A stretch of 53,968 nt of DNA, from positions 1-53,968 of the forward strand of contig CACFVG010000005.1 of the NCBI GenBank assembly GCA_902569725.1. Reading direction: 5' to 3'. Position numbers and translations under genes: made by a program. The notes under the pieces are model-generated. The model saw only the letters and a list, made by a program, of their open reading frames with translations. It did no database searches and was not told the DNA's origin. Origin of the DNA: an uncultured Pelagibacteraceae bacterium (GTDB lineage: Bacteria; Pseudomonadota; Alphaproteobacteria; Pelagibacterales; Pelagibacteraceae). How positions within the stretch are numbered: the stretch's first letter is position 1; each line of letters starts with the position of its first letter. Of this stretch, positions 12,962 through 20,950 are shown piece after piece.

Positions 12962-13642
12962 CTAAGATATTAATTTAATTATTTTATTAACACCTTTTTT
13001 TTTAGTTGATAACCTGGATCTCATTAAACAAGCCTGAGACTTTAAAATTTTACCATCATTTAATATACGAAGTTTATTAGCTGTTAAAGTTTGACCGCTA
13101 GAAGTTATATCAGAAATTAGTTCAGCCGTTAAATTTGTGGGCATCGCTTCCGTTGCCCCTCTAGATTTTATTATAGAAAAGTTAGTTACTCCTCTTGAAT
13201 ATAAATATTGACGGGTAAGATTTGGATATTTTGAGCCGATCCTAATCAATCTTTTATTTTTTTTTCTAAACTCATCTGCAACTTCATCTAAATCTAATGT
13301 GGTAAAAACATCAATAAATTCATCTCTCACAGCCAAGACTAAAGTAGCAAAACCAAAATTTAGTTTTTTTTCAACTTTAATATTTCTTTGGACATTTATT
13401 TCTGACTCTCTTAATAAATCAAATCCACTTATTCCTATATCGAGTCTTCCAATAGCAATCTGCTCTATAATTTCTCTTGCATGTAAAAATAAAACTCTAA
13501 CATTGGGTCTATCTTTAATTCTTCCAAGTAATTCACGTTTATTATAATAAATTTTTAATTTTTTCTTTTTAAAAATTTTTTCACTTAAAAAATTCAAGCG
13601 TCCTTTTGAAGGAATCCCTATGTTTATTATTTCGTTACTCAT
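12962..13642 (-). CDS. hisG: ATP phosphoribosyltransferase, short form
   Basis: HisG joins ATP and PRPP in the first step of histidine synthesis. The 226-aa length is the short HisG form, which lacks the C-terminal regulatory domain and needs HisZ. Visible motifs are the N-terminal IGIPSKGRL, RLDIGISGFDLL (substrate binding), IGSKYPNLTRQYL and SRGATEAMPTNLTAELISDITSSGQTL, the PRPP-binding region. The partner hisZ lies immediately upstream with a 4-base overlap, as expected for the hetero-octameric enzyme. Feedback inhibition by histidine would act through HisZ. Confidence 0.94.
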   Translation of the reverse strand: MSNEIINIGIPSKGRLNFLSEKIFKKKKLKIYYNKRELLGRIKDRPNVRVLFLHAREIIEQIAIGRLDIGISGFDLLRESEINVQRNIKVEKKLNFGFATLVLAVRDEFIDVFTTLDLDEVADEFRKKNKRLIRIGSKYPNLTRQYLYSRGVTNFSIIKSRGATEAMPTNLTAELISDITSSGQTLTANKLRILNDGKILKSQACLMRSRLSTKKKGVNKIIKLIS

Positions 13643-14688
13643 AAATTTATTGCAGCTCCTACTGCGGGTATTTTTTTTAATCCAAGAACTTTTGATGTTA
13701 AATCATTGTATCTTCCACCAGCTACCAAAGTTTTAACTGATTTTTTAATCTTCACTTCAATTGAAAAAATGAATGAACTATAATATTCGACATCCTTGCC
13801 TCTTCCATTGCTTGTTGAAAACTCAAAATTTATACTTTTCTGGTTAAGATTTGAAATTGGAAAAAAATCTTTTCCAACAGAAATATTTAAATTATATTTT
13901 TTATAAAATTTATTCAATTTTTTTGGAGCTTCTTTAAGTGAACATTTAATTTTTAAAAACTCTCTAATAATTTTTGAACTATATTTTCCTGTTTCAGCAA
14001 TTCTAGGATCGTTTATTTTTCTTTCGTATCTCTCAATTATTTCTCGATAACTTCTACCAGCAATAATTTTATTGGGATTTTCTTTTTTCATCTTTAGATA
14101 AGTTTTTTTATCGCCTGCAACGACAATAGGGTCTATATCAGAATTACTCTGTAAACGGTTTAGGAGTTCTGAAAAGTATTTTTCATTCCAGTAAAACTTT
14201 AGCAATCTAGCCTTCCAGCGCTGTGGCATAGAAAGCTTCTTAATTAATAGTTCAAATAATTTAAAATTCCCTATTTTTACAGTTGCTTTTTTAAAACCAA
14301 ATTTTTTAATAATTTTAATTGATGTATCTAAAATTTCTTTATCATCTTTATTTTCATTTTTAGATGAAAATATTTCCATTCCTATTTGTTTAACTATGAC
14401 GTTTTTTTTATTATATGATTTTCTAAATGCATTTCCTGTATAGAAAACTTTTTCTTTAGAATTTGTATTATTTTGAGCATATCTTAAAATTGAGGATATG
14501 GAGAGATCTGGTGTTAATGAAAAATCCCTCCCATCAGAATTATAAAAAGAAAATAAATATTTTCTAAAATTTTCTCCTGATCTTTGTAAAATATATTTTG
14601 TTTCCAACACTGGATCTAATTCAATATTCTTAAACCCTTTAGACTTTATTAATCTAAGGATTTTCTTAGATAAGTTTTTTGATTTCAT
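13639..14688 (-). CDS. hisZ: ATP phosphoribosyltransferase regulatory subunit
   Basis: HisZ is a histidyl-tRNA-synthetase paralogue without aminoacylation activity that activates short HisG and senses histidine. The 349-aa protein has a class II synthetase-like core (DFSLTPDLSISSILRYAQN, YTGNAFR for motif 2, and VAGGRYNDLTSKVLG near the end for motif 3) but no C-terminal anticodon-binding domain. It overlaps hisG by 4 bases and hisS by 23, so hisS-hisZ-hisG is one transcription unit. This compact arrangement couples histidine charging and synthesis genes. Confidence 0.9.
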   Translation of the reverse strand: MKSKNLSKKILRLIKSKGFKNIELDPVLETKYILQRSGENFRKYLFSFYNSDGRDFSLTPDLSISSILRYAQNNTNSKEKVFYTGNAFRKSYNKKNVIVKQIGMEIFSSKNENKDDKEILDTSIKIIKKFGFKKATVKIGNFKLFELLIKKLSMPQRWKARLLKFYWNEKYFSELLNRLQSNSDIDPIVVAGDKKTYLKMKKENPNKIIAGRSYREIIERYERKINDPRIAETGKYSSKIIREFLKIKCSLKEAPKKLNKFYKKYNLNISVGKDFFPISNLNQKSINFEFSTSNGRGKDVEYYSSFIFSIEVKIKKSVKTLVAGGRYNDLTSKVLGLKKIPAVGAAINL

Positions 14689-16057
14689 TTACTAAGTTTT
14701 CTTTTTGAATTGTAATTTGATTATTTCCTTTTTCGCCTTGGAGATTTTTCAAAGTAATTTTATTTTCCTTAAATTCGTTTTCTCCACATATTAATGCAAT
14801 TTTAAGGCTCTTGCGGTTTGCATAATCTAATTGTTTAGAAAGTTTTTTATTACTTTCTAAAAAAATTTCAGAATTAATTCCATTATTTCTTAGAATATTT
14901 AGTAACTCATAATATTTATCTAAATATTTTTCATCCATTATGCACACTAGTACTGGTTTTTGTTCATCAACTTCATTTTTGTTTTTTTGAGACAGGCACC
15001 AAACTAAACGAGAAATTCCAATAGAGATTCCTGAACCGAGGAATGGATCACCTTTAAATTTGGTTACCAAATATTCACCGCCACTACAAATTGATCCTGG
15101 CTCTACAATTTTACCTTTTGGATTTTTAACCTCAAAATTTAAGTTAGTTTCTACAATAAACCCCGTATATATATCTAGACCTCGGCATATTTTTGGATCG
15201 AACTTAACTAGATCTGCATAATCTCCATAATTTAAGATATCAAACAAATCTTCGAGCTCATTTATACCTTGTTTCGTTAAGGGATTATCAATCTTTTTTG
15301 ATAGATCTTTTAAGTCTTTGATCTTTAAAAAATCTATAATCTCTTTTGCTTGATTATCACTTAAGTTTGCACCTTTAGTTACAGCTCCACTAGCATCGCG
15401 TCTTTCCTTTTTTAATAACTCTTCAACACCTTTTAAACCAAACCCTTTTTTATCTAATTTATCAATTGCTCTTAAAACTTTCTTTTTTTGCTTTTCATCA
15501 AATATTTTAAGTTGATCCATTAAACCTTGTATAATTTTTCTATTGCTTACATTGATTGTAAAGTCTGATTTTTTTAAACCACAACTTATAAGGGTGCTTC
15601 CAATAACATTAATTAATTCCGAGTTAGCCTGCTTAATATCAAATTTACCAACAATATCGCAGTCACATTGTTCGAACGATTTCCACCTACCATTAGAACT
15701 CTTCTCTCGTCTAAAAACTGTTCCCATTTGATATCTTTTATATGGGTTTGGTAAATTCATATAATTTTGACTATAAAAACGTGCGAGTGGAACTGAAAGA
15801 TCATAAATTAACGAAATATCTGTACCATCATCATCAAAAGTATAAATGTCAGACATTGGGTTCTCTTCATCCTCGGCCAATGAATTTCCAATCATAGAGC
15901 TATATTCCATAGGGCTAGTTTCAAGAGGACTAAATCCAAACTTAATAAAGTTTTGTTCAATTATTTTTAATAATTTTTTCTTTAAAATAAGATCTGATCC
16001 CCAACTATCTTGAAAACCTCTGGGTAAACTTGGTACTAATTTATTTTCTTTGTTCAT
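14666..16057 (-). CDS. hisS: Histidyl-tRNA synthetase, alphaproteobacterial derived type
   Basis: HisRS charges tRNA-His. From ATG at 16057 the protein has 463 aa. An in-frame extension to 16102 would lie wholly inside the tRNA-His gene, so the start MNKENKL, directly before the conserved LPRGFQD, is chosen. Visible parts are IYDLSVPLARFY (motif 2 region), GRWKSFEQCDCDIVG, CRGLDIYTGF, GGEYL and a C-terminal anticodon-binding domain. The FEQCDCD version resembles the derived alphaproteobacterial HisRS that recognises tRNA-His lacking G-1. No Shine-Dalgarno is visible; the start codon follows the tRNA 3' CCA by three bases. The 3' end overlaps hisZ. Confidence 0.93.
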   Translation of the reverse strand: MNKENKLVPSLPRGFQDSWGSDLILKKKLLKIIEQNFIKFGFSPLETSPMEYSSMIGNSLAEDEENPMSDIYTFDDDGTDISLIYDLSVPLARFYSQNYMNLPNPYKRYQMGTVFRREKSSNGRWKSFEQCDCDIVGKFDIKQANSELINVIGSTLISCGLKKSDFTINVSNRKIIQGLMDQLKIFDEKQKKKVLRAIDKLDKKGFGLKGVEELLKKERRDASGAVTKGANLSDNQAKEIIDFLKIKDLKDLSKKIDNPLTKQGINELEDLFDILNYGDYADLVKFDPKICRGLDIYTGFIVETNLNFEVKNPKGKIVEPGSICSGGEYLVTKFKGDPFLGSGISIGISRLVWCLSQKNKNEVDEQKPVLVCIMDEKYLDKYYELLNILRNNGINSEIFLESNKKLSKQLDYANRKSLKIALICGENEFKENKITLKNLQGEKGNNQITIQKENLVNEIKKLI

Positions 16058-16060
16058 GTT

Positions 16061-16134
16061 TGGTACAGTTTGAAGGTTCTGCCCCTTCGCCTGAATCTCC
16101 ACAGGATTCCGTGCTACTATTACACCAAAACTGC
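16061..16134 (-). tRNA. tRNA-His (GUG), atypical, abutting hisS
   Basis: A full cloverleaf can be folded on the minus strand. The acceptor stem is GCAGTTT/AAACTGT (G1-U72 wobble), the D-stem GTGT/GCAC, the anticodon stem GAATC/GATTC with loop CTGTGGA (anticodon GTG, U33 present), and the T-stem GAAGG/CCTTC, followed by A73 and an encoded CCA. Position -1 is A, so the usual G-1 of tRNA-His is absent, as in many alphaproteobacteria. The T-loop is GGCAGAA instead of TTCRANN, and D-loop position 18 is A. A TATAAA-like -10 box lies at 16148-16153. It is either the functional tRNA-His or a tRNA mimic controlling hisS; the intact CCA favours a real tRNA. Confidence 0.78.
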
Positions 16135-16192
16135 TTCCTTCTATTCTTTTATACTAATTGTTGTTAAATTTAAATTTTAAAATGATTAAATT

Positions 16193-16209
16193 GCTAGCTT
16201 TCAGCCAGC
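16193..16209 (-). other. Small hairpin in the cspA to tRNA-His intergenic region
   Basis: The stretch 16135-16363 (229 bases) holds no convincing gene. On the minus strand GCTGGC and GCTAGC form a 6-bp stem (one G-U) around a TGAAA loop. No T-run follows, so it is not a standard intrinsic terminator. Its position upstream of the tRNA-His gene would allow it to be part of the leader of that transcript or of the cspA 3' region. Confidence 0.35.
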
Positions 16210-16302
16210 ATGAAAATGGTGTCTGTGTGATAAACTAAGTATTTTAATTTTTTTAATCATTGAGAAATAAATAGCATTTTTTTTTATAAATGCAAGAAGG
16301 AT

Positions 16303-16353
16303 TTGTATAGGAATAACTTAGTTAAAACTAAGAATACTCCTATACAATTTTTT
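16303..16353 (+). terminator. Strong hairpin followed by T6 on the plus strand, downstream of cspA
   Basis: Bases 16303-16312 (TTGTATAGGA) pair perfectly with 16338-16347 (TCCTATACAA), and an inner 5-bp stem CTTAG/CTAAG closes a TTAAAA loop. On the plus strand the hairpin is followed by six T, the signature of an intrinsic terminator. On the minus strand it begins 16 bases after the cspA stop but has no U-tract after it. It may serve cspA as an RNA-stabilising 3' hairpin, end an unrecognised plus-strand RNA, or both. Confidence 0.55.
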
Positions 16354-16363
16354 AGAAATAGAA

Positions 16364-16573
16364 TTAAGATGTTTTTTGAAGTTTTACTGCCGACGGACCC
16401 TTGTCTCCGTCCTCAACTTCAAACGTTAGTTCATCTCCCTCATTTAGGAATCTTAAACCAGCTTCCCTAACTGCAGAAGCATGCACGAACACGTCCTTCT
16501 CTTTATCCTCACGTTCAATAAAGCCATAACCTTTTTTGCCATTGAACCATTTTACGCGACCTTTTAAACTCAT
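16364..16573 (-). CDS. cspA: Cold-shock domain protein
   Basis: This 69-aa single cold-shock domain binds single-stranded nucleic acids and melts RNA secondary structure. RNP1 is KGYGFIE and RNP2 is VFVHASAV; the GRVKWFNGKKG start is typical. The ATG at 16573 is chosen over an upstream in-frame ATG at 16624 because it gives the exact family N-terminus (MSLKGRVKWF) and is preceded by AGAAAGA as ribosome-binding site; the extra 17 residues would not fit the family. It is probably monocistronic, with a palindromic 5' leader and a strong 3' hairpin. The symbol is the generic family name. Confidence 0.93.
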   Translation of the reverse strand: MSLKGRVKWFNGKKGYGFIEREDKEKDVFVHASAVREAGLRFLNEGDELTFEVEDGDKGPSAVKLQKTS

Positions 16574-16703: not shown

Positions 16704-16778
16704 TGGTGGCCTTGGTTTGAATCGCACAAACGACACATACCTTTTCAGGGTACTGCTCTACTACTGAGCTACAAGGCC
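16704..16778 (-). tRNA. tRNA-Phe (GAA)
   Basis: The cloverleaf on the minus strand has acceptor stem GGCCTTG/CAAGGCC, D-stem GCTC/GAGC, anticodon stem GTACC/GGTAT with loop CTGAAAA (anticodon GAA), variable loop GTGTC, T-stem GTTTG/CAAAC, A73 and encoded CCA. The T-loop is TGCGATT, so position 55 is G instead of U, and the D-loop AGTAGTA has A18 instead of G18. All stems are intact, so the gene appears functional. It begins two bases after the infA stop codon and is probably processed from the same transcript. Confidence 0.95.
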
Positions 16779-20876: not shown

Positions 20877-20950
20877 GCCCTTATAGTTAAATGGTATAAC
20901 GTGACTATGGTAAGGTTAAATTTCAAGTTCGATTCTTGGTGAGGGCACCA
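20877..20950 (+). tRNA. tRNA-Thr (GGU)
   Basis: The plus-strand cloverleaf has acceptor stem GCCCTTA/TGAGGGC, D-stem GTTA/TAAC with loop AATGGTA (canonical G18-G19), anticodon stem TGACT/GGTTA with loop ATGGTAA (anticodon GGT), T-stem TCAAG/CTTGG with canonical loop TTCGATT, then A73 and encoded CCA. The T-rich tract just downstream (near 20965) may terminate transcription. It lies tail-to-tail with the glycosyltransferase gene, whose stop codon is only one base away. Confidence 0.95.

Follow-up and report, generated by a model that had tools for sequence, protein, structure and literature searches.

The tRNA-His gene of this Pelagibacteraceae (SAR11) bacterium stands 3 nt before hisS, at the head of a gene unit that continues with hisZ and hisG. 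Judging from the sequence, we consider it likely that this unit, made of a working and probably the only tRNA-His together with hisS-hisZ-hisG, is controlled by ribosome-mediated attenuation at a histidine leader peptide. The window, that is, the whole stretch of 53,968 nt that was analysed, comes from a 993-kb genome assembly of 39 contigs that is 81% complete. The features of the locus are as follows.

16704-16778, (-) strand: tRNA-Phe with an A18/G55 elbow and T-loop TGCGATT, about 600 nt upstream of tRNA-His
16201..16260, (-) strand: open reading frame of a His-rich leader peptide, MIKKIKILSLSHRHHFHAG followed by a stop codon, between csp and tRNA-His
16192..16210, (-) strand: 8-bp hairpin TGCTGGCT-GAA-AGCTAGCA, which includes the stop codon of the leader; putative attenuator stem, its U-tract being weak
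16148..16153, (-) strand: -10-like TATAAA, 14-19 nt before the 5' end of tRNA-His; putative promoter
16061..16134, (-) strand: tRNA-His (GUG), 74 nt, with G1 at 16134 and the encoded CCA ending at 16061; read from the sequence
16058..16060, (-) strand: spacer AAC, 3 nt, from the CCA to the hisS ATG; read from the sequence
14666..16057, (-) strand: hisS, histidyl-tRNA synthetase (HisRS), 463 aa; TIGR00442 at 313.7 bits, above the cut-off
13639..14688, (-) strand: hisZ-like open reading frame, ATP phosphoribosyltransferase regulatory subunit; 23-nt overlap with the end of hisS
12962..13642, (-) strand: hisG, ATP phosphoribosyltransferase; TIGR00070 at 157 bits, above the cut-off; 4-nt overlap with hisZ

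The hisS product also matched the Pfam HisRS and anticodon-binding domains, and the best NCBIfam matches of the hisZ-like frame were hisZ models, with scores below their cut-offs. An earlier note on this DNA had placed the CCA three bases before the hisS ATG and hisZ and hisG in the same unit. Both observations hold: the tRNA runs from 16134 to 16061, AAC follows, the ATG begins at 16057, and the two further genes lie downstream of hisS with overlapping gene ends. Adjacency and gene overlaps thus bear out the arrangement of tRNA-His and hisS as a single unit, and the 3-nt gap suggests that they would be co-transcribed. The note had, however, overlooked the His-rich leader peptide and hairpin at 16192-16260, and it had treated as ordinary a tRNA-His that is aberrant, fast-changing and apparently the only one of the cell. 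An open frame from a GTG at 16102 inside tRNA-His was taken as chance. It should be noted that this in-frame GTG, which is part of the tRNA anticodon, could mislead gene callers into an over-long hisS annotation.

Histidine leader and the tRNA-His-hisS junction

At least three His codons among the last 14 codons before the stop were present in 81% of 135 loci, compared with 4% of shuffles (two of the 135 rows, L033 and L043, were mis-assigned and had too little upstream sequence). A motif coding for HRHHxHA occurs once per genome, at the leader only, in the four genomes having it. Nearly all tRNA-His genes are preceded by a hairpin at a distance of 47-62 nt; the stem sequences differ and pairing is kept. 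The terminator search of the region returned no calls, and the leader hairpin, having no strong U-tract, is not a consensus intrinsic terminator. Closer to the tRNA, 87 of the 90 distinct upstream sequences have [T/G]ATAAA or TATAAT beginning 16-21 nt ahead of tRNA-His. The leader also occurs in the sister family, where all nine loci examined carry a His leader approximately 90-100 nt before hisS, followed by a stem and with no tRNA between (for example, MFNFKHHHYHI and THHHIHI, each ending at a stop codon); for L256 the scan chose another open reading frame, and the His-rich stretch is visible at the same place in the sequence. Two further elements were observed nearby. Six sister-family loci (L218-L220 and L253-L255) have in common, immediately behind the leader hairpin, a conserved CCCC plus U-rich element. 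In the window, csp (16364-16573) is followed by a long inverted repeat at about 16300-16345, which may end the csp transcript just before the his leader.

In essentially all of the approximately 140 Pelagibacteraceae loci, tRNA-His lies just 5' of hisS, and the arrangement is therefore not due to chance. With regard to conservation of the 3-base spacing, adjacency is kept among relatives and the exact distance is not: of 133 parsed loci, 127 have a spacer of 3-7 nt from CCA to start codon, most commonly AAAA, and the other six have one of 19-29 nt. Hairpin inserts of 19-29 nt between tRNA-His and hisS were seen in L110, L111, L161, L165 and L181-L183, several of them with an SD-like GGAGG. In the sister family, tRNA-His was located about 1.4 kb upstream of hisS where seen, with a gene between (MFS-type, read in L219 only), and no tRNA-His stood directly before hisS in the other Alphaproteobacteria sampled. 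Thus, the tight adjacency looks derived in Pelagibacteraceae. The absence of a Shine-Dalgarno sequence at hisS, also pointed out earlier, was confirmed (duplex energy +0.8). Such sequences are not enriched at the start codons of the window (median -0.25 versus -0.7 kcal/mol at random places), so that their lack at hisS is ordinary. Since the A-rich spacing of 3-7 nt is conserved, cleavage behind the CCA would produce a hisS mRNA that is practically leaderless, with a 3-nt leader in the window; such an mRNA is plausible and would arise only if 3' processing takes place at the CCA.

On the basis of these features, attenuation might proceed as follows. When His-tRNA is scarce, ribosomes would pause at the leader's His codons and mask the 5' half of the neighbouring stem; RNA polymerase would then read through, and the first enzyme of histidine synthesis would be made together with tRNA-His and HisRS. 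When His-tRNA is ample, the leader peptide would be completed, the hairpin would form and most transcription would stop. Mature tRNA-His would be freed by RNase P together with 3' cleavage in the A-rich junction, leaving a hisS mRNA almost without a leader, and a basal promoter beside tRNA-His may supply a constant fraction. The model has two weak points, namely the stem without a strong U-tract and the -10-like hexamer just before tRNA-His; the latter suggests that some transcripts may start downstream of the attenuator and escape attenuation. If the model is true, tRNA supply, the charging enzyme and amino-acid synthesis would be placed under one His-sensing switch.

Two other readings of the arrangement were considered. 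First, the adjacency might reflect plain genome compaction, in which tRNA-His has its own promoter, hisS is expressed by readthrough and the junction carries no regulatory meaning. The streamlined genome, in which starts without a Shine-Dalgarno sequence are common, and the -10-like element just before the tRNA would fit this explanation, but it would leave the conserved His leader ahead of tRNA-His with hardly anything to regulate, and the adjacency has been retained through large sequence change; we therefore regard it as unlikely. Second, the earlier note had suggested direct autoregulation through binding of HisRS to the unprocessed RNA. In this reading, HisRS sitting on the tRNA-His portion of the precursor would prevent its own mRNA from being translated, much like ThrRS at the tRNA-like thrS operator. 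A synthetase bound to a tRNA only 3 nt from the start codon would indeed cover the initiation site, and the adjacency is conserved in Pelagibacteraceae. However, no operator-specific feature could be seen in the sequence, some lineages have an insert of 19-29 nt between the tRNA and the ATG, and a separate conserved element that would sense His is present, whose leader and hairpin fit better. Autoregulation of this kind is thus unsupported, and we consider it very unlikely. In particular, the sister family has the His leader before hisS and no adjoining tRNA, and the occurrence of the leader both with and without the tRNA-hisS junction is evidence for attenuation over autoregulation by HisRS.

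Identity of the hisS-linked tRNA

ARAGORN made no call for the window tRNA-His, and a Rfam search gave no tRNA match at this place even at E<=10. Both misses are likely due to an aberrant elbow, since the D-loop is AATAGTA (A18 G19) and the T-loop GGCAGAA (G54 G55 C56 ... G58) instead of loops with GG and TTC, respectively. We built a leave-one-out covariance model from 27 distinct hisS-linked tRNA-His sequences of relatives, the window's own being excluded, and its top match was exactly 16061-16134 (66.9 bits, E 1.4e-15), above the other tRNAs of the window. SAR11 bacteria are among the most abundant on Earth, and the tRNA on which they may rely to decode histidine is one that can escape standard annotation.

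Comparison of 28 tRNA-His sequences revealed that the four-stem cloverleaf has been maintained through compensatory changes. Stem cells were paired in 98.4% of cases, 195 had changed on both sides (53 in shuffles), the covariation score was 0.915 (0.187 in shuffles) and double changes occurred in 17 of 20 pairs. Folded alone, the window tRNA-His has a minimum free energy of -19.8 kcal/mol versus -18.1 kcal/mol for the cloverleaf. Among 39 distinct tRNA-His sequences, G1.U72, C2-G71 and A73 were invariant, and the GUG anticodon lies in a 7-nt loop that reads CUGUGGA in the window and YUGUGGA in 37 of the 39. In Caulobacter, the tRNA-His identity set consists of A73, U72 and the anticodon (PMC9976931), and all 39 sequences carry the alphaproteobacterial U72 and A73, in agreement with that report.

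The canonical elbow, G18 with U55 and a TTC T-loop, is replaced by A18/G55 in the window tRNA-His. In the tabulated loops of the 39 distinct sequences, positions 18 and 55 co-vary, G18 occurring with U55 and A18 with G55, and the same swap was found in tRNA-Val(GAC) and tRNA-Phe of the same genomes. It therefore looks like a working variant of the elbow rather than a disqualifying defect. Psi55 has been called universally conserved (PMC4810234), and the present series of tRNA-His genes makes it testable whether the 18-55 elbow pair can be A-G rather than G-U. Some hisS-linked genes depart further from the common form. The tRNA-His of L172 (1498-1571, (-) strand) has G73, no encoded CCA and the same T-loop GGCAGAA as in the window; the HisRS of this locus has an altered motif-2 loop (FRNETSKTGRGRYRSFFQ), which suggests co-evolution with its tRNA-His. 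In L109, L165, L166 and L170, the tRNA-His adjoining hisS has no CCA encoded directly after position 73.

ARAGORN typing of two complete genomes, G003 and G017, revealed no further tRNA-His besides the hisS-linked gene, whose T-loop is also odd in both; the other 31 ARAGORN tRNAs serve the remaining amino acids. Thus, the hisS-linked gene is in all probability a functional tRNA rather than a mimic. It was also the top covariance-model match in all seven genomes searched, with a model that itself includes sequences from these lineages. Based on these relatives, the hisS-linked tRNA is probably the only tRNA-His of the window cell, whose own genome is 81% complete. That the element is instead a tRNA-like regulatory mimic or a pseudogene, with the true tRNA-His located elsewhere, is extremely improbable and was rejected: such a reading would account for the ARAGORN and Rfam misses and the T-loop without TTC, but the two complete relatives have no second tRNA-His, every stem covaries and is preserved through compensatory changes, and the window and L047 share an identical tRNA-His although their HisRS differs by 8%.

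Diversity and replacement of tRNA-His genes

Between the window genome and G003, tRNA-His was the most divergent isoacceptor (64% identity, versus 93-100% for most others). When clustered at 82% identity, the Pelagibacteraceae genes fell into 12 groups, with two forms left unplaced (approximately 14 types), and only the acceptor end (G1.U72, C2-G71 and A73) and the anticodon loop were preserved across types. From these conserved positions, the HisRS appears to be of the alphaproteobacterial, G-1-independent kind that would need mainly the acceptor end and the anticodon, and the rest of the tRNA body could therefore vary freely provided that it still folds. With very different tRNA-His bodies serving related HisRS, the minimum that a synthetase requires of a tRNA can be tested. 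The window and L108 have 56% identity in tRNA-His and 86% in HisRS.

The tRNA-His types are scattered over the HisRS tree, with at least 26 changes where the minimum is 13 (69 rows). Co-transfer of tRNA-His with hisS as a unit is therefore not the main pattern, and we rejected it as such. A closer view is given by L018 and L118: their 250 nt of upstream sequence match completely (100% identity) and their hisS genes at 96%, yet their tRNA-His genes are 83% identical. L018 has the same tRNA-His sequence as L128, L129 and L133, although its hisS shows just 86% identity to theirs; L118 shares its tRNA-His with L135 and L142 at a hisS identity of 76-77%. The simplest reading is that replacement is confined to the tRNA-His gene. 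We tentatively raise the possibility that, in Pelagibacter, alleles of this essential single-copy tRNA-His behave as a swappable cassette, in which recombination of the tRNA only and diversifying selection (for example, by phage integrases or nucleases that target tRNAs) would change the tRNA while hisS and the attenuator stay, and which HisRS would tolerate by reading mainly the acceptor end and anticodon. The control, tRNA-Phe, was also variable (mean pairwise identity among relatives of 79%, versus 71% for tRNA-His), and the phenomenon is therefore not restricted to His. In addition, tRNA-Thr(GGU) (window positions 20877-20950, (+) strand) is unusually divergent between congeners (66-85%), and its G017 copy has an odd T-loop.

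A phage source of tRNA-His was also tried and rejected. Exact-match scans of viral contigs for tRNA-His found nothing, the window tRNA-His had no match among 50,697 phage records, and the commonest type (L048 and relatives) only weakly resembles a phage tRNA-Gln (77-78% over 54 nt, E 4e-3). This weak likeness of the L048-type body is a possible sign of an anticodon-switched origin. Pelagiphages have been reported to integrate at tRNA-Cys and tRNA-Leu, and no case of integration at tRNA-His is given in the same reports (PMC12753301, PMC6811365).

Comparison with known systems

The enterobacterial his operon is controlled by a histidine leader-peptide attenuator. In bacilli, His leader peptides precede hisZ and hisS* (PMC2965389). 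The SAR11 locus resembles both in having a short His-codon open reading frame and then a hairpin upstream of hisS- or hisZ-type genes, and it differs in that a tRNA-His gene lies between the attenuator and hisS and in that the U-tract of the hairpin is weak. No hisS leader of such kind in SAR11 could be found in the literature searched, including PMC2704228, which gives none for hisS. Likewise, we found neither the SAR11 leader nor the junction of tRNA-His with hisS, nor the diversity of tRNA-His, described in the open literature; subscription papers lay outside this search, and prior notice of the adjacency is possible.

A class of G-1-less tRNA-His with a eukaryote-derived HisRS has been described in SAR11, for which co-transfer was suggested (PMC3937112). 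The genes examined here share with this alphaproteobacterial pair (PMC3937112, PMC9976931) A73, U72, the anticodon and the lack of an encoded G-1:C73. They are distinguished by extreme diversity of the tRNA body within one family, the A18/G55 elbow and the linkage to hisS.

Other systems also tie a tRNA to the expression of its own synthetase gene, such as the tRNA-like operator of E. coli thrS and the T-box. The link between a tRNA and the expression of the cognate synthetase gene is common to these systems and the present locus, whereas the element here is a real tRNA gene; a T-box leader was rejected on the basis of no Rfam T-box match at E<=10. Finally, in pylT-pylS a tRNA gene stands beside its cognate synthetase gene. 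The SAR11 locus has the same kind of adjacency and differs in that the pair is essential and belongs to the standard code, the gap from CCA to ATG is 3 nt and a His leader peptide is present.
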